45,685 nucleotides of DNA from a virus, in IMG/VR virus record IMGVR_UViG_3300032954_000743, positions 1-45,685 of that record, one strand, 5' to 3'. Every line of letters begins with the position of its first letter. Within the stretch, counting starts at the first letter, position 1. The notes beneath the pieces are model-generated. The model was not told where the DNA came from. It searched no databases and worked only from the letters and a program-made list of their open reading frames with translations. Positions 3,365 through 43,994 of this stretch are shown piece after piece. Position numbers and translations under genes: made by a program.

Positions 3365-4891
3365 GTGCTTCGTGTTGACCGGGACGCGCTAGCGGCGCTC
3401 CCGGCCTCCCAGCAGGCCGAAGCCGCCGCCCTGCTGGAGTCCTATGAGGAGCAGCTGAAGAACAATCCGCTGCTGGGCTACCAGCCGCATCCGAAGCAGG
3501 TGGAGTTTCATTCCTCAAGGCTGCCGTTGAAGGCGTTCCTCGGAGGGAACCGCTCCGGGAAGACGACTGCTGGGATCCTGGATGATCTGATCCAGGCTGT
3601 CGATATGGAGTGCCTCCCGGAGCACCTGAGGCCGTTCAAGCACTATGAGCCCCCGTTTCATTGCAGGATCGTCGCGCCGGATTTCACGAGCACGATGGAG
3701 GGGGTGATCTTCCATAAGCTCCGGGAATGGGCCCCTAAGAGCCAGCTACGGGGCGGCAGGTTCGACAAGGCTTACGACAAGGCGCTACGGAAGATGAGCT
3801 TCGCGAACGGGTCCACGATCGATTTCTTGACGTTTGAGCAGGATCTGGACAAGTTCGGGGGCGCGGCGAAGCACCGGATCCACTATGACGAGGAGCCGCC
3901 CGCGAACATCCGCCGTGAGGGCCTGATGCGCCTCATCGACTATGGCGGGGATGAGTTGTTCACGATGACCCCGCTTCATGGCATGAGCTGGATGTACGAC
4001 GAGATCTGGGAGCCCTGGACGCGGGGGAGGCTCGAGGAAGGGCTCGTGACTCTCGTGGACATGGACGACAACCCGTATCTGGATGAGAAGACGAAGAAAC
4101 GCGTCCTACGAGGATTGTCCAGGGAGGAGCGGGAGGCCCGGAAGTCTGGCCGGTTCGTGCATTTCGCGGGGATGATCTACGACGAGTTCAACCGCAACTT
4201 TCATGTCATCCCGGAGGTCCGTGAGGTAACCTCCGGCTCACGCGTGTATGTGGGGATAGACCCGGGGATGAGGCATATGGCCGCCGTCGTCTGGACGTAT
4301 CTGACCCCTGAGGACACGCTGGTTGTGTTCGATGAGCTCGCCCTTCAGGGCCATACGGTGAAGCAGGTCGCTACCGCGATCAAGGAAATCAACATGAAGT
4401 GGGGGCAGAGGACTGAGACGGGTGCCATCGTTTCGCTACATCCCGACTGGTATGTCATTGACCCTTCGGCTCGCAACATCGTCCATCAGACCGGAAGGTC
4501 GGACCAAATGGAGTTCACAGATCAGGGAATCGTCACCATACTTGGACAAAACTCTGTTACGGCAGGTATCAACCGCGTCAAGGAGCGCCTCCAAGCGAAC
4601 AGGCTGCTCGTGACCGCGAACTGCCAGACGTTGGTCGGCCAGTTCCGCAAGTACCGCTGGGCGACCCCCACGAGATCCGAGGATGATCCAAAGGAGAAGC
4701 CCGTCAAGAGCGACGACCATCTCCTGGACGCTCTCCGCTACGTGGTCGCCTCGAGGCCTTATACGCCAAAGGAAGAGGAGGGTTGGGGTCCGATGAACGA
4801 GTTTGAGAAACGAGCGAGAGAAGAGATGACCGGCAAAACGTACAACAAGAGGAAGGTCGCGGTCACGCCAATGGGGGGGATCTTTGCGTGA
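3365..4891 (+). CDS. terL: Terminase large subunit
   Basis: This is the DNA-packaging motor with ATPase and nuclease domains. Visible motifs are Walker A GGNRSGKTT (60-68), Walker B IHYDEE (172-177), the nuclease Asp in VGIDPG (Asp299) and the distal acidic motif SDDHLLDALRY (Asp450/451/455). The length of 508 aa is usual for the family. A GTG start four bases after the previous TAG is used. The stop overlaps the GTG of the HNH gene. Codon use is GAG/AAG-rich, unlike the small proteins just upstream. Confidence 0.95.
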   Translation: MLRVDRDALAALPASQQAEAAALLESYEEQLKNNPLLGYQPHPKQVEFHSSRLPLKAFLGGNRSGKTTAGILDDLIQAVDMECLPEHLRPFKHYEPPFHCRIVAPDFTSTMEGVIFHKLREWAPKSQLRGGRFDKAYDKALRKMSFANGSTIDFLTFEQDLDKFGGAAKHRIHYDEEPPANIRREGLMRLIDYGGDELFTMTPLHGMSWMYDEIWEPWTRGRLEEGLVTLVDMDDNPYLDEKTKKRVLRGLSREEREARKSGRFVHFAGMIYDEFNRNFHVIPEVREVTSGSRVYVGIDPGMRHMAAVVWTYLTPEDTLVVFDELALQGHTVKQVATAIKEINMKWGQRTETGAIVSLHPDWYVIDPSARNIVHQTGRSDQMEFTDQGIVTILGQNSVTAGINRVKERLQANRLLVTANCQTLVGQFRKYRWATPTRSEDDPKEKPVKSDDHLLDALRYVVASRPYTPKEEEGWGPMNEFEKRAREEMTGKTYNKRKVAVTPMGGIFA

Positions 4892-5238
4892 AGCGAGATA
4901 AACGGTCAGCTAGGACGTGTCAGTGTGGCGAGCCGCTTGGCTATTACCGTCAGAAATGCGATCGCTGCAAGACGGTTGCCCAGTATCGGTATAGGAAGCG
5001 TGGGCGTATGGGAAGACGCGCTCTCGTAGATGCCCTGAAGATGGATGTCGGGTGCGCTAAGTGTCCTCCTGGGACGGTATGGCCAGCGCAGGTTTTGGAG
5101 TGGCATCATGTTGGTCCAAAGACAGCCTGCGTTTCCGAAATGTTGGCTTTGGAGGTCAGCATCAAGCGACTACAGGCCGAGATCAACGAGTGCGTTTGTC
5201 TTTGCGCCAATCACCACAGAATGGAGACATTCGCATGA
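4888..5238 (+). CDS. HNH homing-type endonuclease (116 aa)
   Basis: Zinc ribbons CQCG and CDRCK near the N-terminus are followed by CAKC and an HNH core: LEWHHV, then CLCANHHR at the C-terminus, a layout common in small phage homing endonucleases. The GTG start overlaps the terL stop, and its own TGA overlaps the next ATG. Insertion between two coupled genes without loss of coupling fits a free-standing homing gene. Confidence 0.85.
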   Translation: MKRDKRSARTCQCGEPLGYYRQKCDRCKTVAQYRYRKRGRMGRRALVDALKMDVGCAKCPPGTVWPAQVLEWHHVGPKTACVSEMLALEVSIKRLQAEINECVCLCANHHRMETFA

Positions 5239-8544: not shown

Positions 8545-8634
8545 ATGGCCGAACTCTCCGTTCCTGCCAGCAATCAGACGCGGTTATACTTTTTCCGGTT
8601 GCAGGAAGGATGTGACGGCTGGACGTTGATGTAG
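8545..8634 (+). pseudogene. Displaced copy of the portal gene 5' end
   Basis: The ATG directly follows the fibre gene TAG and encodes MAELSVPASNQ. These same eleven residues begin the portal frame at 9165. The two 33-nt copies differ at six positions and every difference is synonymous. After codon 11 (8577) the frame runs into the HNH insert and stops at 8632-8634, giving a 29-residue peptide. This appears to be the original portal start, cut off by the HNH insertion. Confidence 0.7.
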
Positions 8635-9128
8635 CCGTGCATCCCGCCACGGGAAAGCGGCTTGACGTGGTCCACGTCAAAAGGTCCGTCGATAAACTCG
8701 CCGCAGATCCCGCAGCGTCCACCGTGCATCGTGTAGACCGTAGTTCGATCAACGTCCTCAATAAACTGGCCCAGCTTGCGAGCGCGTCGCGACATAGCCC
8801 ATATGGAACTTTGCTTTCGTCCCTGTGGTGTCTGGTCGCGCTCCTTCTTCTTGGCTAGGACGTGTTCTTTTTGCCGCTCATAGCGCGCTGCACTTTTAGT
8901 AAGCAGCTCGGCTTTGTTCTGCCGATGATGGTCCGCCTGATACGCGCTCCACGCGGAACGACAGGCATCGCAGCGACATTTGAAGTTTGTGTAGCCCGAT
9001 AGAGTGCCGTGCTTGCAACGGCTCATGTCCTTCAGACGTTTGCGGTACTCACGTTGATATTCGCGGGTGCCAAGCTTACAAACATCGCAGCGGCATCCCC
9101 TGACGTATCCCCCGTAACCATGAACCAT
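8574..9128 (-). CDS. Antisense HNH endonuclease inserted at the portal start (184 aa)
   Basis: Zinc-type Cys clusters occupy the N-terminal 60 residues (CRCDVC, CRCDAC), followed by a basic helical linker. The C-terminal HNH core is CGICGEF, FDVDHVKPLSRGG and HPSCNRKK. The stop codon lies inside the upstream portal copy. The gene is opposite to all its neighbours and has its own leaderless-type promoter, as expected of a mobile homing gene. Confidence 0.85.
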   Translation of the reverse strand: MVHGYGGYVRGCRCDVCKLGTREYQREYRKRLKDMSRCKHGTLSGYTNFKCRCDACRSAWSAYQADHHRQNKAELLTKSAARYERQKEHVLAKKKERDQTPQGRKQSSIWAMSRRARKLGQFIEDVDRTTVYTMHGGRCGICGEFIDGPFDVDHVKPLSRGGMHGYINVQPSHPSCNRKKYNRV

Positions 9129-9434: not shown

Positions 9435-11156
9435 ATGACTAAGAGCAAGCCGTCCTTCCAAGTGGTCCCGACGACCCCGGAAGACTCGGATGTTCAGGCG
9501 AGCATCATGGCGGAGAAGATCCTGGACTACCTGTGGCGCAAGGAGCATTTACGCAACAAGCTCGTGGATGCGCTCCTTTGGTCCCGGATTACGGGTTCGG
9601 GGTTCTGGAAGATCGTGTGGGACAACAGTAAGGGCAAGAAAGTCCAGGTTCTCGCGGACAACGAAGGTAAGCCGGTCCTCCATGCCGAAACGGGTGCGCC
9701 GATGAAACCCGAAGCGGTACAGGACGAAGAAGGCAAGCTCCCGGAAGGGCTCCAGTCGAAAGTGATTGCGACGGGGGATGTGCATGTCGAAACGGTCGCC
9801 CCGTTCGAATTCCTCGCCGATCCGATCGCGAAGCGTATAGAGGATGCGGAGTGGTGCATCCAGGAGAACGTCAAGAGCCAGGAATACGTCCGCCAGCACT
9901 ACGGGGTGGTTGTCCCGACCGACACGGACATTATGCCTGGGCCCACCGAAGCCCGAATGTTCCCGTCCTACCAGATGGGCGGCACCAGCAACTACAAGGG
10001 CGTGAAGGTCCACGAGTATTGGTGTAAGCCGAACATGACGCACCCTGAAGGCCGCCGTGCGGTCTGGAGCAAAGGCAAAATGCTCTTCGAAGGCCCGAAC
10101 CCCTACGGCTGTCTTCCCTACGTGATGTTTACGGGGATCCCGATCCCGGGACGCTTCTGGCCGACGAGCACCGTGGAGCAGCTGCGCTACCCGCAGACGG
10201 AGCTCAACAAGATCCGATCCCAGATCCTCGAGTCCGCGCAGCGTACGGGGAACCCGGCGTTCATGTCCAGCCGCCAAGCCAACATCTCCTACAGCGGTGT
10301 TCCGGGTGAGCGGATCGACTATGACGACACGACCCTGAACTCGATCCCGTCCTACCTTCAGCCGCCCCCGATGCCTGCCTATGTGCTCCAGCAGCAGGAA
10401 CGCATCGAACAGTCGATGCAAGACATCTCGGGCCAGCACGAGGTTTCCAACGCCCAAGTTCCGGCGGGGGTCAAGGCTGCATCCGCGATCAATCTGCTCC
10501 AGGAAGCCGATGACACGCGGCTCGGGCCGAATATCTATGACATGGAGGAAACGCTCGGGGTCGCCGGCTCGATGCTTCTGAAGCTCGTCGCGAAGTATTG
10601 GACGGATGAACGGACGATCATCATCGCCGGGAAGGACCATGCGCTCGACAGCATGGTCTTCAAGGGCGCCGCGTTGAAGGAGAACACGGAGGTCGAAGTC
10701 CAGGCGGGATCCCAGTTCCCGAAGAGCAAGGCCGCGAAGCAGGCCGCGATACAGGACATGCTGAACCTGTACTTCCAGTACCAGGGCCAGCAGCCGATGA
10801 ACAAGCGCATGATCGGGAAGGTTCTGGAAGACATGGAGGCCGGGGCGCTCGCGAAGCTCTTCGGTGACGTGTCTGTGGACGAGTCACAGATCAACCGGGA
10901 GAACCAGCAGATCAGCCAGGGTATGCCGATCCAGATCAACGCGTTCGACAATCACGAGGCGCACATAGAAGGCCACGAGGAATTCCAGAAGGGCCCGACG
11001 TACTTGGGGCTTGGGCCCCTTATAGCCCAGGTGATGGAAAACCATGTCAACGAACACCGGGCGCAGTTGATGGCGCAGATGGCGCCGATGGTCCAGCAAC
11101 AGGAAAACGGAGCATCCGCTCCTACACCAGCAGGAGGTTCTAATGGGAGCGCATGA
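9435..11156 (+). CDS. Portal protein (main open frame, 573 aa)
   Basis: This is the dodecameric head-tail connector through which DNA passes. Family features are an N-terminal LTDNRIIGIVRTELAKMTK segment, a wing with YWCKP and MLFEGPNPYG, and the conserved stem PFEFLADP/GVKAASAINLLQEADD followed by long helices. The Gln/Met-rich tail is typical of podoviral portals. Coding potential extends upstream of ATG 9435 to 9309, so the true protein is longer unless initiation occurs here; GGAG 9 nt upstream could support restart. Confidence 0.85.
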   Translation: MTKSKPSFQVVPTTPEDSDVQASIMAEKILDYLWRKEHLRNKLVDALLWSRITGSGFWKIVWDNSKGKKVQVLADNEGKPVLHAETGAPMKPEAVQDEEGKLPEGLQSKVIATGDVHVETVAPFEFLADPIAKRIEDAEWCIQENVKSQEYVRQHYGVVVPTDTDIMPGPTEARMFPSYQMGGTSNYKGVKVHEYWCKPNMTHPEGRRAVWSKGKMLFEGPNPYGCLPYVMFTGIPIPGRFWPTSTVEQLRYPQTELNKIRSQILESAQRTGNPAFMSSRQANISYSGVPGERIDYDDTTLNSIPSYLQPPPMPAYVLQQQERIEQSMQDISGQHEVSNAQVPAGVKAASAINLLQEADDTRLGPNIYDMEETLGVAGSMLLKLVAKYWTDERTIIIAGKDHALDSMVFKGAALKENTEVEVQAGSQFPKSKAAKQAAIQDMLNLYFQYQGQQPMNKRMIGKVLEDMEAGALAKLFGDVSVDESQINRENQQISQGMPIQINAFDNHEAHIEGHEEFQKGPTYLGLGPLIAQVMENHVNEHRAQLMAQMAPMVQQQENGASAPTPAGGSNGSA

Positions 11157-15603: not shown

Positions 15604-15677
15604 ATGGCTACTCAAACACTGGCATCCTTTGATGCCGCACTGAAGGATCTGTACGTAGGACCCATAGTCGAGCAGCT
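15604..15677 (+). CDS. Major capsid protein, exon 1
   Basis: It begins MATQTLASFDAALKDLYVG and continues to VEQ plus two bases of a Leu codon. Unspliced, the frame hits TGA at 15679-15681. The last base is U, as needed at a group I 5' splice site. Joining to 16338 gives EQL-NQKTYLL, and the total coding length of 1269 nt is a whole number of codons (422 aa). AAAGG lies upstream of the ATG. Confidence 0.8.
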
Positions 15678-15899
15678 TTGAGCAAACTGGGCTTCTCGTA
15701 AAACAACTCGGCTATATGCTGGGACCTCCGAGTATCCGGTACGCCGCAAGGTATCCGGTGCGGACAATCAGCAGGGAAGGCCCCGCAAGGGGAACCCTCA
15801 GAGGCCACACGCCGAGCCCCCGGAAGGGGTGAAGATATGGTCCGACCCCTACGGCGACGTAGGGAGCTAGGCGGACTAGAAACGACCTAGCCTATCCGG

Positions 15900-15912
15900 T
15901 AAGATACATCCT
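15900..15912 (+). promoter_or_regulatory. -10 box placed for a leaderless intron HNH mRNA
   Basis: TAAGAT (15900-15905) is followed by exactly 7 nt and the ATG at 15913. No ribosome binding site is present. A weak -35-like TAGAAA lies 17 nt upstream. This would let the HNH gene be transcribed apart from the capsid mRNA. Confidence 0.45.
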
Positions 15913-16326
15913 ATGACTTCCATAGGAGAACGTATCAGTGAAGGAAAGAAGCCCGGGTCGGTGGCGATGAAACGCAAGGTGCATGCCCTCTACCAAAAGG
16001 GATACACACCGGGCCAGATCGCAACCAAAACGGGCATCTCGAAGGCTACGATCAAAGTGTGGATCGTGCCCCTCGAGAAACACTCGACGGGCTTCAGCCA
16101 GCGTCCCTACGGGCAGGCCGCCGCAAGGGTGGCCCGGCTCACGGGACAACCCGGCGAGCGTATTCGTCAGGAAATGGAGGGGAAGGCAAATGACCCCTGC
16201 ATCTTCTGTGGTTCCTTGATCGTCGAGGCTAAGGGCTGGTCCGGACCCGCTTTTCATCACTATGAGGATGGAAGTGTGGATCGGGCGCATAAGGGCTGCA
16301 ATGCGGTCCGTAGGCATACCGGGTAG
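15913..16326 (+). CDS. Intron-encoded HNH endonuclease (137 aa)
   Basis: The N-terminal half holds a helix-turn-helix (YTPGQIATKTGISKATIKVW) that probably binds the target. The C-terminal half is an HNH-type core: CIFCGSL, FHHYEDG and HKGCNAVRR. It lies wholly inside the group I intron and stops 11 nt before the 3' splice site. The expected role is homing of the intron into intron-less capsid genes. Confidence 0.85.
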   Translation: MTSIGERISEGKKPGSVAMKRKVHALYQKGYTPGQIATKTGISKATIKVWIVPLEKHSTGFSQRPYGQAAARVARLTGQPGERIRQEMEGKANDPCIFCGSLIVEAKGWSGPAFHHYEDGSVDRAHKGCNAVRRHTG

Positions 16327-16337
16327 TAACAAACGTG

Positions 16338-17532
16338 CAACCAGAAGACCTACCTGCTCGACCAGATCGAGCGGGACGCGGACCACATCGACCACACGGG
16401 CCGCCGCGCGGTTGTGCCGCTGCACAAGAACCGTAACCGTGGCCGGAAAAGCATCGCTGATGGTGGCACGCTGCCCTCGGCGGGCGCCCAGGTGTACCTG
16501 GACGCCATCGTCCCGCTGCGCTACCACACCTACGGGATCGAGCTCACTGACCAGGTGATCGAGGCTTCCAAGACGAACGAGGGCGCTTTCGTGTCCGCGA
16601 TCGAAGTGGAGTCCAAGGGCGTCGCGGTGGATATGCGCAAGGATGTCAACCGGCAGGCGTTCGGGACCGGCAACGGCGCGCTCGCCCAGAAGGTCTCCAG
16701 CACGGTCGGCGTGGACAAAACCTCCAAGGAAACGAAACTGAAGGTCCTGACCGCGAACGACATGCAGTACATCCACGTCGGGGATGTGGTGGATGTCATC
16801 AAAGAAGCAACCGGGGAACTCGGGGAAGGCGTCGAAGGCTCCGAAATCACCGAAGTCAAAGAAAAAGAAGCGATCCTCTCCAAAGCGCTGAAAGGCGAAC
16901 TCGCGGCGGAAACCTACCAGGTGTATGTGTCCGGGAACCGCAACCAGGAGATGGACGGTCTGCGGAACATCACCGAAAACGAACGAGTCCTGCACTCCGT
17001 CAACTCAGGGACCGCAGGGAACGCGTTCTGGAAAGGCAACACGGTCACCGCCGGTACGTCCCTTACCGCCACCGCGGTAGCGGGAGAGTCGCTGTTCGAG
17101 CAGCTCGCGGACAACGTTGGCGCGCAGGGTAACGGTGACGTGGAGGTCTTCCTCACGACCCGTGGTATCCGTCGCAGGCTGGCGGACTCCTACCAGTCCC
17201 AGAAGCGTTTCAACGACGCGAAAGCCGTGGATGTTCACGGTGGCTACAGCGCGATCATGGTCAACGAGATCCCTGTTGTGGCCGACGACGACGCCCCGAA
17301 GGGGTTCGCGTTCGGCTTCAACAAGTCCGCTCTGAAGTGGTTCGAGCAGACGAAGCCGGGGTGGCTGGAACGCGAGAACGGCGGGATCTTCCACCTGAAG
17401 ACCGCAGGTACGGGGACGTATGCCGCGATCTGGCAGGCATGGTTCCGCTGGTATGCGGCTCTTGGCTGTGTCGCGCCTAACAGGACGGGCAGGATCGAAT
17501 TCTGCACCGATGACAAACCGCTGCTGTTCTAG
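16338..17532 (+). CDS. Major capsid protein, exon 2
   Basis: The coding frame resumes in the middle of a codon at 16338 and reads NQKTYLLDQIERDADHIDHT. It continues through an HK97-like plan: an N-arm, E-loop (HKNRNRGRKSIADGG), LRYHTYGIELTDQVIEAS and a P-domain, ending WYAALGCVAPNRT...LLF. Starting at the internal ATG 16414 would remove the N-arm. Family assignment as phage major capsid rests on layout, position after the scaffold, and the strong terminator that follows. Confidence 0.88.
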
Positions 17533-28114: not shown

Positions 28115-28203
28115 ATGCCGCCCGCAAGGACCACGAGGATCACTATTGCGAGGATGCCTCCGACGATGCCAAGGGCAAAGTAGTACTTCTCGGGCTCGGT
28201 CAT
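28112..28203 (-). CDS. Antisense single-transmembrane micro-ORF (30 aa)
   Basis: Read leftward, the gap between the two flanking genes encodes MTEPEKYYFALG followed by the strongly hydrophobic IVGGILAIVILVVLAGG, then TAG. Its stop shares the CTAG that ends the gene at 24674, and its ATG overlaps the CATG that starts the gene at 28202. Third codon positions are mostly G or C. No good Shine-Dalgarno is seen. The rightward frames in the gap give nothing similar. Confidence 0.45.
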
Positions 28204-29218
28204 GGCTCTAGATAAGCAGATTGTTGGCGAAGCCGCACGCAAGTACGGGATCGACCCCAAGATCCTCTGGGGCCTCTACGGGACTGAGACCAGCTTCGGC
28301 AAAAACGTCTCCACCTCAAGCGCCGGCGCGGTCGGCCCGTTTCAGTTCGAGCCCGCAACCGCAAAGAGCATGGGCGTCAACCCGTATGACTTCAAGAGTG
28401 CAGCCTTCGGAGCGGCACGCTACCTGAGCCAATATAAGGGCAGGGGAATCGGCGGGATGCTCTCTGCGTACAACGCTGGCCCTGCGGGGGGCTACCAGTC
28501 TGGGTACGTGAACACGACCCTCCAGAACGCGAAGACCTATGGGGGGGCGACTCCTAGCCCGATCCCTCAGGCGAAGCCCGTAGGAGCGCCTACAGCGGCC
28601 TCTACAAAGACGGAAGAAGTGGAAGCTCCGCACGCGAAGGGCTTCGAACAGCTCGGGAAGCTCCTAAAAGCCGAAGGTGCGCCTGCCCCGCTGACGGGCT
28701 TGATCCAGGCGAAAACGGAACCCGTCACCCGGACTATCCCCAGCACTGTCCCGAAGGCCAGCCCGCAGGACGAACCGCATCTCGCTTCGATCATCCAGGA
28801 GGCGGATCACATCAGCGAAGCGCACGTCCCGTACCTGTGGGGTGGCGGTCATGCGGCAAGGGTCCTGCCGGGCGGGAAGGTCACGCCCCTGGATTGTTCC
28901 GGTGCCGTTTCAGCGGCGTTGGGGATCAACCCGAAAGTCGCGAGCGAATTCGAGTCGTGGGGTGCGCCCGGGAAGGGCCCGCATTTGACGATCTGGGCGA
29001 AGAGTACGCATGTGTTGATGGAAGTGGACGGGAAATTCTGGGGCACGTCGGCATCGAACCCGGGTGGTGGCGCGGGCTGGATCAAACCGGGTGTCATCAC
29101 CCCGGAGTACCTGAAAGGTTTCACGCCCCGCCATCCTGCCTCAGAACAGGCCACGCCTACCAATGGAGGGAATGTCGTGAAACTCCCGTTGAGATCGGTG
29201 TTCGTACCTCATGGCTGA
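28202..29218 (+). CDS. Virion lysin: SLT transglycosylase plus NlpC/P60-like domain (338 aa)
   Basis: Residues 1-115 are a lytic transglycosylase domain: catalytic Glu29 in GTETSFG, then SAGAVGPFQFEPATAKSMGV and LSAYNAGPAGG. A Pro/Ala linker follows. Residues 195-310 resemble an NlpC/P60 peptidase: YLWGGGH, catalytic Cys232 in LDCSGAV and His270 in STHVLMEV. The pair would cut glycan strands and peptide stems during entry. The next gene overlaps its end. Confidence 0.85.
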   Translation: MALDKQIVGEAARKYGIDPKILWGLYGTETSFGKNVSTSSAGAVGPFQFEPATAKSMGVNPYDFKSAAFGAARYLSQYKGRGIGGMLSAYNAGPAGGYQSGYVNTTLQNAKTYGGATPSPIPQAKPVGAPTAASTKTEEVEAPHAKGFEQLGKLLKAEGAPAPLTGLIQAKTEPVTRTIPSTVPKASPQDEPHLASIIQEADHISEAHVPYLWGGGHAARVLPGGKVTPLDCSGAVSAALGINPKVASEFESWGAPGKGPHLTIWAKSTHVLMEVDGKFWGTSASNPGGGAGWIKPGVITPEYLKGFTPRHPASEQATPTNGGNVVKLPLRSVFVPHG

Positions 29219-34677: not shown

Positions 34678-34914
34678 TCACGACTGCAACCCTCTGCACT
34701 CAGGAGAAGAAGACTCTGAGGAGGAGCCACGCTGGCGAAAGTCAGCGGGCGAGTCAAGCGAAAGCGGCTGCCGATCCCCGGGTTGCACGTCGAAGCACTC
34801 CTGGCAGTAAAGGGCGTGCTCGACAAGCCACTCGCTCCACATGCGGCCTTCAGCGTCGTTGAGCGCACGCCGCGGACGTTCTTCGCAGCCGATGCACATC
34901 TCCTCGCCGCTCAC
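34678..34914 (-). CDS. Two-CxxC small protein (78 aa)
   Basis: GTG at 34914 follows GGAGG and overlaps the HNH stop (GTGA). CIGC and CQEC, about 28 residues apart, probably bind zinc. The C-terminus is Ser/Arg-rich and disordered. It lies between the HNH and methyltransferase genes. Function unknown. Confidence 0.55.
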   Translation of the reverse strand: MSGEEMCIGCEERPRRALNDAEGRMWSEWLVEHALYCQECFDVQPGDRQPLSLDSPADFRQRGSSSESSSPECRGLQS

Positions 34915-35402
34915 GTCCCGCCTCCGCACGAATGCAACGCTGTGCACGTTGTCGCAGCCTCGTTGGTAGTTGGGGAAGGCTCTGAGGGAAGCCGAGCGGC
35001 GCGGCGGCAAACACGACATCCACGCCTCCCATCGGGATAGAAGTAGGTATTACTCTCGTTGTAGGGGTGCCCGCGCTTGCAATGCGTCTTGCGAGCATGT
35101 TTCGCGGCGGGACCGTTTCCCCGCAGGGTATTCTCACGCTGCGTTACGGCCTCTAAATGCACTGGATTGACGCAGAGGGTGTTGCGGCAGAGATGGTCCA
35201 ACGTTAGCCCCTCGGGGATAGATCCGTGGAATTGTTCGTAGGCAAAGCGATGTGCACGAACTACCAGCCCAGTCCTCACGTAGAACTGCCCATAACCCCC
35301 ATCTCGCGGGGGAGATGTCCAGAGCCAGCACTGCCCAAGGTACGGCGAAGGGAGCGGACCAGACTTGCTCACCTTGGTCCAGAACCTCTCTGCGATCTCC
35401 AT
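34911..35402 (-). CDS. HNH endonuclease (163 aa)
   Basis: The ATG at 35402 is set by the promoter 6 nt upstream. The domain order is CWLWTSPP with YGQFYV, then RAHRFAYEQFHGSIPEGLTL, DHLCRNTLCVNPVHLEAVT and a C-terminal zinc region (CKRGHPYNE, GCRVCRRA). It is a typical free-standing phage HNH endonuclease. It is the first gene of the leftward operon, so its promoter may drive the methyltransferase as well. Confidence 0.85.
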   Translation of the reverse strand: MEIAERFWTKVSKSGPLPSPYLGQCWLWTSPPRDGGYGQFYVRTGLVVRAHRFAYEQFHGSIPEGLTLDHLCRNTLCVNPVHLEAVTQRENTLRGNGPAAKHARKTHCKRGHPYNESNTYFYPDGRRGCRVCRRAARLPSEPSPTTNEAATTCTALHSCGGGT

Positions 35403-35437
35403 AACCCCATTATGACCAGTAATCCCCTTGGTGTCAA
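35403..35437 (-). promoter_or_regulatory. Near-consensus promoter, leaderless for the HNH gene
   Basis: Read leftward there is TTGACA (35437-35432), a 17-nt spacer, CATAAT (35414-35409), 6 nt, then the ATG at 35402. It is the strongest sigma-70-like match in the window and the only clear promoter for the whole leftward operon. Confidence 0.8.
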
Positions 35438-35729
35438 GGCTTGGCTGCGCCCTCCGTCTCACTCCGCGCAGCTAGGAGCCCATCGCTTGGGCTTGCGCCC
35501 GTCAGCTTCCCCCCGGCTGGCGGGCGCTTTGTCGTTCAGGAGAGGAAACCCGGGGCGCTTCCCAAAGAATCTCGAACGCGGGAAGCCCAGCTTCGGGCGG
35601 CTGGCCGATCGATCATCCTCTCGCCCCGGGTAGGGCCATGATACGCTCCCCGCTCCCGCATAGCAAGCGGATGACGCCCGCCGAAGCATCCCAAACGGGC
35701 GTGGCCGGCCTCCGTCATGGCGCGGGGGC
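35438..35729. other. Intergenic region between divergent units
   Basis: No gene is clear in this stretch. It holds a strong hairpin (35495-35527), a 7-bp stem ACGCCCG/CGGGCGT with a 15-nt loop (about 35672-35700) and the palindrome GGCCGGCC. A 39-codon frame begins at ATG 35717 (MARGLSEEEVSLDPF) with no ribosome binding site; its internal TTG at 35750 follows GAGGAGG. Confidence 0.4.
35495..35530 (+). terminator. Strong GC hairpin followed by TTT
   Basis: GCGCCCGTCAGC pairs with GCTGGCGGGCGC over 12 bp with one G-T pair, then TTTGTCG. No rightward gene lies upstream. It could insulate the divergent units or be part of a structured leader RNA. Confidence 0.5.
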
Positions 35730-38006: not shown

Positions 38007-38310
38007 CCCCGGCTCCCTCACCGTGAAGCTCGAAGGGATCGAGAACGATCTTGCGGAGCGCCAGAACCGCTATGAGGAAGCCGCCGCCGCCTGGTTCAAG
38101 CTGGTCCCAAGGATCGAGAAGAACCTAGCGATAGCGTACCGGGAAGCACCTGGTGGCCCTACGGACAAAAAGGAAGCCGCGAAGGCCCTGAGGGAGATTG
38201 AAGGTGCTGAGGAGAAGGCTGCGTATGAGGCGCTGCGGGTGGTCGTGAAGGTGCTGGAACAGCGCAGCATGATTCTGATGGCTTTGCTAAAGTCACAAGG
38301 ACACGTATGA
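37999..38310 (+). CDS. Helical hypothetical protein (103 aa)
   Basis: The ATG overlaps the previous gene by 8 nt. The sequence is almost all helix with coiled-coil character (LTVKLEGIENDLAERQNRYE, EAAKALREIEGAEEKAAYEA). Similar small helical proteins accompany phage recombination genes. Its stop overlaps the next ATG. Confidence 0.6.
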   Translation: MTDPGSLTVKLEGIENDLAERQNRYEEAAAAWFKLVPRIEKNLAIAYREAPGGPTDKKEAAKALREIEGAEEKAAYEALRVVVKVLEQRSMILMALLKSQGHV

Positions 38311-38798
38311 GCTTCAAATGCGGCTACTGCGGACGTTCGTTTGAAGGCAAGCGGCGAGGTAGCTTCTCTGTGCGCTACTGCAATCGGACATGTGCTGGAA
38401 GGGCGAAGGGGCGCAGCGCGATCGGCATTGCATCAGATGGCCGGGCCTACATCAGCCTTCGGGATGGCACTCGACGGCATTGGGCTCGATGCCTCATGGA
38501 AGGCTACCTGAAGCGCGAACTAGCCCCCGATGAGATTGTCCACCACATCAACGGCGACCGCTCAGATGATCGCCTAGAGAACCTAGAAGTGTTGAGCAAG
38601 TCTGACCATACACGGCTGCACACGCTTGAGGCATGGTCGAGAGGGCCGCAAGGTCCAGCCAAGCTGACTGCCGAGCAGGTGCGCCTAATTCGCGCCTCCG
38701 ATGAAACGACAGGCGCGGTCCTTGTCCGTAGATTCGGCGTATCGGAAGCGGCCATCAGCATGATCCGCCACGAAAAGACTTGGAAGAACGTTGCCTAG
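38307..38798 (+). CDS. HNH homing endonuclease with C-terminal HTH (163 aa)
   Basis: An N-terminal zinc finger (CGYCGRSFEG, YCNRTCAG) is followed by an HNH core (DEIVHHINGDRSDDRLENLE, SDHTRLH) and a C-terminal DNA-binding segment (KLTAEQVRLIRASDETTGAV then VSEAAISMIRHEKTW). The layout is typical of intron-less phage homing endonucleases. ATGA couples it to the previous gene, and AAGGA lies 5 nt before the ATG. Confidence 0.88.
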   Translation: MSFKCGYCGRSFEGKRRGSFSVRYCNRTCAGRAKGRSAIGIASDGRAYISLRDGTRRHWARCLMEGYLKRELAPDEIVHHINGDRSDDRLENLEVLSKSDHTRLHTLEAWSRGPQGPAKLTAEQVRLIRASDETTGAVLVRRFGVSEAAISMIRHEKTWKNVA

Positions 38799-43364: not shown

Positions 43365-43994
43365 GTGGGTGGCGTCAGTCTTGAGAAGCGGACGCGTGTG
43401 CTGTTCGGGAAACCGCAGCGCCTCTGCGGGAAATGCGGAGTTTGGCAGCCGCTCGACCAGTTCAAGGCCAGGTCGGGGATCTGTCGGCTCTGCACGAACG
43501 CGCGGCATCGCCAGCTGTACGCGGAAGGGCGGTTCACGAAGCCTGACCGGCAGCGCGCTAGGGAAAACCAGAAACGGAACCGCGAACAGAACCGGGAGCG
43601 TCGCCGCGAACAGAACCGTCGTTATCGGGAAGGCCTCAAAGCCAACCCGGAGCGGCTGGCGCGCTACAACGAACTGCGCCGTATGGCCTACAGGGAACGG
43701 CTTGAGCAGGAAGGCCGGCCGTTGGATTCGATCAGGCCCATGAAGGCGCAGATGGCTAAGGAACCCGCTAGGCGCGTCGCGCTTGCCCCTTTGCGTGAGG
43801 CGTTTTTGCGTTCTGAGCTGACGCCTTCAGATGTTGCTCGGCGTGTTGGGTATGAGCGTGGTGGGCGCCCGGACACTTTGCGGGTGCGGCGGGTGCTCGG
43901 GCTGACGGATGAACCGAAGTCTGCGGTCAACTACGATGTCGCGATGCTGCTCGTGAGGGCGCTTGACATTGACCCTGCGAGCGTGGGCGTATGA
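43365..43994 (+). CDS. Zinc-finger and HTH DNA-binding protein (209 aa)
   Basis: A GTG start is used. The N-terminus has CGKCGVWQPLDQFKARSGIC and RLCTNARHRQLYAEG, a zinc ribbon like those in phage HNH/recombination endonuclease VII-type proteins, then a long basic Arg-rich helix. The C-terminal 60 residues are an HTH domain like the protein at 39313. No complete HNH active site is seen. Confidence 0.65.
   Translation: MGGVSLEKRTRVLFGKPQRLCGKCGVWQPLDQFKARSGICRLCTNARHRQLYAEGRFTKPDRQRARENQKRNREQNRERRREQNRRYREGLKANPERLARYNELRRMAYRERLEQEGRPLDSIRPMKAQMAKEPARRVALAPLREAFLRSELTPSDVARRVGYERGGRPDTLRVRRVLGLTDEPKSAVNYDVAMLLVRALDIDPASVGV

Follow-up and report, generated by a model that had tools for sequence, protein, structure and literature searches.

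A predicted mobile group I intron with a putative homing endonuclease gene in the major capsid protein gene of an environmental phage

The major capsid protein (MCP) gene of the phage represented by virus record IMGVR_UViG_3300032954_000743 (45,685 bases, all of which were analysed and are referred to here as the window) is predicted from its sequence to be interrupted at 15678-16337 by a group I intron. A match to the Rfam model RF00028, the existence of intron-less homologues, and compensatory base changes among four homologous introns uphold the preliminary description of such an intron in this gene. Taken together, the sequence evidence makes it very probable that this is a mobile self-splicing group I intron, inserted after nucleotide 74 of the MCP coding sequence and carrying an open reading frame (ORF) for a probable homing endonuclease. 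The intron is real, well supported and of an already recognised kind. Together with its homologues it adds a well-supported instance of a splicing element placed in the structural gene that phages usually express at the highest level. The parts most worth pursuing are two adjacent insertion sites and an unrecognised endonuclease family.

Table 1. Predicted features of the interrupted MCP gene (window coordinates)
Feature	Position	Strand	Evidence
MCP exon 1 (74 nt; MATQTLASFDAALKDLYVGPIVEQ plus first two bases of a Leu codon)	15604..15677	+	Frame restoration; relatives
Group I intron (660 nt; terminal G, omega-G, at 16337)	15678..16337	+	RF00028; frame restoration; three homologous introns
Internal guide sequence GGCUUCUC (P1 3' strand; pairs with exon 15670-15677)	15690..15697	+	7 of 8 pairs
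P3 5' strand CUCGGC (partner 15811-15816)	15707..15712	+	C-G to G-C in L006
P4 5' strand (partner 15768-15773)	15717..15722	+	U-A to G-C in L006
P5 and extension, capped by GCAA tetraloop 15746-15749	15727..15764	+	P5 C-G to U-A in L006
P6/P6a (GCAA tetraloop 15785-15788)	15774..15798	+	Sequence; RF00028 match
P7 5' strand GGCCA (guanosine-binding helix; partner UGGUC 15838-15842)	15803..15807	+	GACUA/UAGUC in L006 (C-G to U-A, both sides)
P8 hairpin (GGAA loop 15822-15825)	15818..15829	+	Second pair C-G, U-A or A-U across four introns
P9 hairpin	15847..15864	+	Three pairs altered on both sides
P9.1 hairpin	15866..15891	+	U-A to C-G change
Intron ORF (137 aa; probable homing endonuclease)	15913..16326	+	Homologues in L006 (51%) and L021 (62-63%)
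MCP exon 2 (1195 nt)	16338..17532	+	Spliced protein matches phrog_14242

Reconstruction of the capsid protein

Translation bears out the earlier statement that the unspliced frame, which opens at 15604, ends after 25 codons. Exon 1 ends with GAGCAGCT at 15677, and removal of 15678-16337 joins GTC GAG CAG CT to C AAC CAG AAG (EQL-NQKTYLL; predicted DNA junction GAGCAGCU followed by CAACCAG), yielding a protein of 422 residues that matches the major head protein family phrog_14242 over residues 3-412 (E = 3.9e-64). The exon 1 end, the splice from 15677 to 16338, the junction peptide and the product length given in the preliminary description all check against the sequence. The comparison with intron-less capsid genes that it had proposed agrees, with homologues up to 94% identical reading through the junction: the counterparts of the two exons are contiguous in the intron-less loci L002, L003, L005 and L009, the closest of which (L002, 94% identical to the spliced MCP) has no break there. 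The intron-less relatives also have residues 1-50, in conserved form, and the first 22 residues, encoded by exon 1, are 95% identical to their L006 counterparts. Annotation can easily go wrong with MCP genes of this kind, which are readily taken for a truncated protein of 372 residues with a downstream start.

The closest cultured relatives of this MCP (about 31% identity) belong to Arthrobacter, Microbacterium and Cellulosimicrobium phages, and the host of the window phage is therefore likely to be an actinobacterium. Elsewhere in the window, 3365-4891, 9435-11156 and 28202-29218 give matches to terminase large subunit, portal and internal virion protein/transglycosylase.

The predicted ribozyme

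RF00028 matches 15643-15864 with a score of 57.9 bits (E = 3e-12), well beyond chance, and is the sole Rfam family above threshold in the window; a covariance-model search, suggested at the outset as a check, thus exceeds the gathering score of 50 bits. Homologous introns occur in the MCP gene of three other IMG/VR viral contigs, namely L021, L020/L064 (one record) and L006, for which the same model scores 70.6 (L006), 53.5 (L020) and 48.4 (L021, slightly below the cut-off of 50). The guide reported 12 nt into the intron was confirmed to pair with the end of exon 1: GGCTTCTC at 15690-15697 makes seven of eight P1 pairs, with one C-U mismatch and a terminal U-G at the splice site, and the intron-final G checks as well. 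Both the P1 pairing with terminal U-G and the final G recur in L021 and L064, and the L006 intron has U and G at its splice sites, its P1 having been read by eye. P1 is invariant among the three introns that share the window's site, as is to be expected since the guide binds a conserved exon. P10, also read by eye, amounts to only about 2 bp in the window.

The core helices were picked out by hand in the four introns, with the RF00028 score as an independent test. Every checked pair of P3, P4, P5, P7, P8, P9 and P9.1 is kept in all four, and in every helix one or more pairs have changed on both strands, so that the suggested check of the P3-P9 fold found compensatory changes and zero broken pairs. 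The GNRA-capped hairpins described earlier are present, but they number three (two GCAA and one GGAA; Table 1) rather than two.

Homologous introns at two neighbouring sites

The introns of L021 (690 nt, with an ORF) and L064/L020 (265 nt, without an ORF) lie after nucleotide 74 of the coding sequence, as in the window, and that of L006 (699 nt, with an ORF) lies after nucleotide 65, nine bases upstream, in the same phase and three codons away. The L006 boundary was set by the U/G splice rule, a boundary one base later being predicted to give an intron that ends in C. Upstream of P3, the L006 intron differs in having its own guide and an added P2 hairpin. Two neighbouring insertion sites, nine bases apart, in one MCP family are new.

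Pairwise identities among the four ribozyme cores are 76-97%, values inflated by RNA constraint, with L006 at 76-79% to the other three. Against L021 and L064, the window shows 90-93% identity in the core but only 64% in the exons; against L006, the values are 79% for the core and 82% for the exons. The endonuclease ORF of the window is 63.7% identical to that of L021 in DNA, no higher than the exon identity of 63.7%, and the event that links the two lineages is old rather than recent, because the endonucleases are as diverged as the exons. DNA searches of the phage collection returned one unrelated short match for the window intron, none for the L021 intron, and nothing for the L006 intron beyond short core matches in other phage records.

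The intron-encoded protein

The 137-residue product of the intron ORF has an N-terminal helix-turn-helix (HTH) at about residues 20-51 and a C-terminal Cys/His segment predicted to form strand-strand-helix (CxxC at 96-99, HH at 115-116, H126, C129 and N130). The ORF products of the window, L006 and L021 are 50-63% identical in amino acids, with the CxxC, HH, HxxCN and RH residues invariant in all three. HTH models match each of them, the window protein exceeding the Pfam cut-off for a Terminase_5-type HTH. No curated HNH or homing-endonuclease model of Pfam or NCBIfam matched the product, HNH models found nothing in the isolated C-terminal segment, and PHROGs gave matches to the HTH region only, including phrog_20467, which is named "HNH endonuclease" and aligned to the HTH part. 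An AlphaFold model from the three-sequence alignment (mean pLDDT 76.9) places strands at 112-116 and 122-126 and a helix at 127-136, mostly with pLDDT of 70-90. In Foldseek searches with this model, no PDB entry reached E 0.001, and the top match in the viral library (BFVD) was an HNHc protein (E = 2e-3, probability 0.99), with several endonuclease VII proteins scoring more weakly; by eye, the spacing H-x4-G-x-V ... H-x2-C-N resembles that of endonuclease VII.

Motif and model together indicate that the product is probably a homing endonuclease of HNH/endonuclease VII type. The intron's own HNH gene of the preliminary description therefore holds as a real and conserved ORF, but its HNH identity comes from motif and weak fold evidence and not from a family model. 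Searches of IMG/VR and of 50,697 phage records, with single sequences and with an alignment, turned up no ORF relatives outside the capsid introns, and this putative endonuclease family, which the libraries searched do not recognise, is new. The window ORF lacks the first nine residues (MPKG...) of both homologues, and an upstream in-frame start was not seen; the missing N-terminus may be an early sign of decay. At least five other window ORFs match HNH/endonuclease VII families (among 1472-1987, 4888-5238, 8574-9128 on the minus strand, 34911-35462 on the minus strand, 38307-38798 and 43365-43994), and the phage genome is accordingly rich in free-standing nuclease genes.

Distribution and mobility

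Scans of IMG/VR with the MCP as query gave 52 loci in the wider search, with the intron present in four and absent from about 47. A tree of 51 MCPs requires at least three changes of intron state (gains or losses) even when gains are allowed freely, and its starred branches by themselves force three. The intron is absent from the nearest relatives of the window, L022/L002 (94%) and L030/L009 (91%). The window core has its nearest counterparts in L021 and L064, whose MCPs are distant, rather than in L006, the closer host relative. This discordance between core and MCP and the patchy presence fit homing, and we infer that the intron is a mobile element. All three allele types of a homing cycle are represented: empty, endonuclease-bearing and, in L064, endonuclease-less.

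Alternative interpretations and proposed mechanism

An MCP made without exon 1, by initiation inside exon 2 (at GTG 16414, for instance, giving 372 residues), with the 25-codon ORF and the insert as a leader or decayed remnant and an intron that has lost splicing, is highly improbable: an ORF of that length with a possible start does exist, but conservation of residues 1-50 in intron-less relatives, exact restoration of the frame and the intactness of all core helices, with compensatory changes, argue against it. Vertical descent of the window, L021 and L064 introns from an ancient intron of this MCP family, with many losses and no homing, would account for the equal divergence of endonuclease and exon between window and L021, yet it is improbable given an intron in just four of some 50 MCP loci and in none of the window's closest relatives, and given that the tree needs at least three changes even with free gains, and vertical descent would call for many more precise losses.

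Somewhat less improbable, though still unlikely, is a spliceable intron whose ORF encodes no active endonuclease; the product would then be an HTH protein of maturase-like or regulatory kind, or a former endonuclease that has lost its activity. Recognition of the HTH alone by family models, the shortened N-terminus in the window and the intact-looking core of the ORF-less L064 intron are all consistent with this. What points instead to a nuclease is that three ORFs, 50-63% identical overall, have invariant CxxC, HH, H-x-x-C-N and RH residues, that the modelled C-terminus is strand-strand-helix, that HNHc and endonuclease VII proteins are weakly matched in fold, and that the intron is patchily distributed.

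For the self-splicing, mobile intron that we favour, the RNA in a late transcript would adopt the P1-P9.1 anatomy shown with its covariation above, and splicing would proceed by established group I biochemistry. With the end of exon 1 held by the guide GGCUUCUC, an exogenous guanosine in the P7 binding site would attack after U15677; exon 1, once free, would in turn attack after G16337 and so join the exons into the 422-residue MCP frame. The ORF product, which would combine an HTH DNA-binding part with a His-Me-finger nuclease part and is most likely a homing endonuclease, would cleave alleles that lack the intron within the strongly conserved GTCGAGCAGCTCAACCAGAAGAC region, and repair would copy the intron in. 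In another phage, L006, the sequence shows a related intron nine bases upstream in the same gene; its guide is different, and its probable endonuclease is related. The natural series of empty, full, ORF-less and nine-base-shifted alleles provides a test of insertion-site change with the endonuclease lineage kept.

Comparison with other introns

Both RT-PCR and sequencing of the protein demonstrated that the intron in the MCP gene of mycobacteriophage LittleE is spliced (Pope et al. 2013, PMC3706429), which makes splicing within an MCP gene established biology. The LittleE and window introns are both probable group I elements that interrupt the MCP genes of phages of high-GC Gram-positive hosts; in each, exon 1 finishes in U, the intron finishes in G, and the intron has an endonuclease ORF of its own. 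They differ in that the 819-bp LittleE insertion lies well inside its gene, whereas that of the window is at codon 25, and in that the LittleE endonuclease is of the LAGLIDADG type, encoded on the opposite strand, and the MCP is a different one (HK97-like, 478 residues when mature). In lactococcal phage Tuc2009, as cited in PMC3706429, the gene for a capsid subunit contains a group I intron; by that description this intron resembles the window's in the kind of gene interrupted and differs in its low-GC host. Jug phages have thousands of group I introns, many of them in terL, nrdD and DNA polymerase genes (PMC12363816), and capsid genes go unmentioned in papers on Bastillevirinae introns (PMC11878797) and phage group II introns (PMC12350094). 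The view of capsid genes as uncommon hosts needs qualification: the MCP intron is real, but its host gene is not unique, given LittleE, Tuc2009 and an SU10-type MCP with two introns (below). Among known capsid-gene introns, the MCP family of the window is a new host; L021, L020/L064 and L006 share this family, a homologous core and, where present, a homologous ORF.

The core pattern GGCTATATGCNGGNACC..AATCNGCAGG matched four viral contigs, L006, L020/L064, L021 and L078 (IMGVR_UViG_3300024520_000348), and all of the viral host genes in this limited sample were MCP genes. L078 is a different phage with an SU10-type MCP (PF17236, E = 9.5e-78), whose gene has two introns: one carries a LAGLIDADG ORF and the other, further upstream, an HNH-like one. 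A related core pattern in the genome_contigs collection matched three MAG contigs (L074, L075 and L076), all in 23S rRNA genes. Their introns have the P3-P4-P5 motif GGCUAUAUGCNGGNACCUCNGAGUA in common with the window and the other phage MCP introns, and RF00028 matches inside LSU rRNA, but unlike the window intron they occupy an rRNA gene of cellular genomes and have no homologue of the window ORF. These contigs, one of which is titled Candidatus Saccharibacteria, each have two to four group I introns above the Rfam cut-off. We tentatively suggest, as a reading that may well not hold, a group I lineage in MCP genes of environmental phages, with one family at two sites nine bases apart sharing an unrecognised family of HTH and divergent His-Me finger endonucleases, and an intron of similar core in the unrelated SU10-type MCP.

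The SU10-type MCP of L078 and L084 (G001:C1:2600-7600) appears to be interrupted twice, by group I introns that lie about 19 codons from each other. After exon 1 (MAVEPADTYVSYAVTGNREDLTDTIYNVAP) come an intron with a 284-residue HNH-like ORF, a short exon (ATPFITGIAVERATSTKH), an 876-nt intron with a LAGLIDADG ORF and then EWQLDSLAAAA (PF17236); at the second junction, splicing restores the frame, and a 7-bp P1 can be read by eye.
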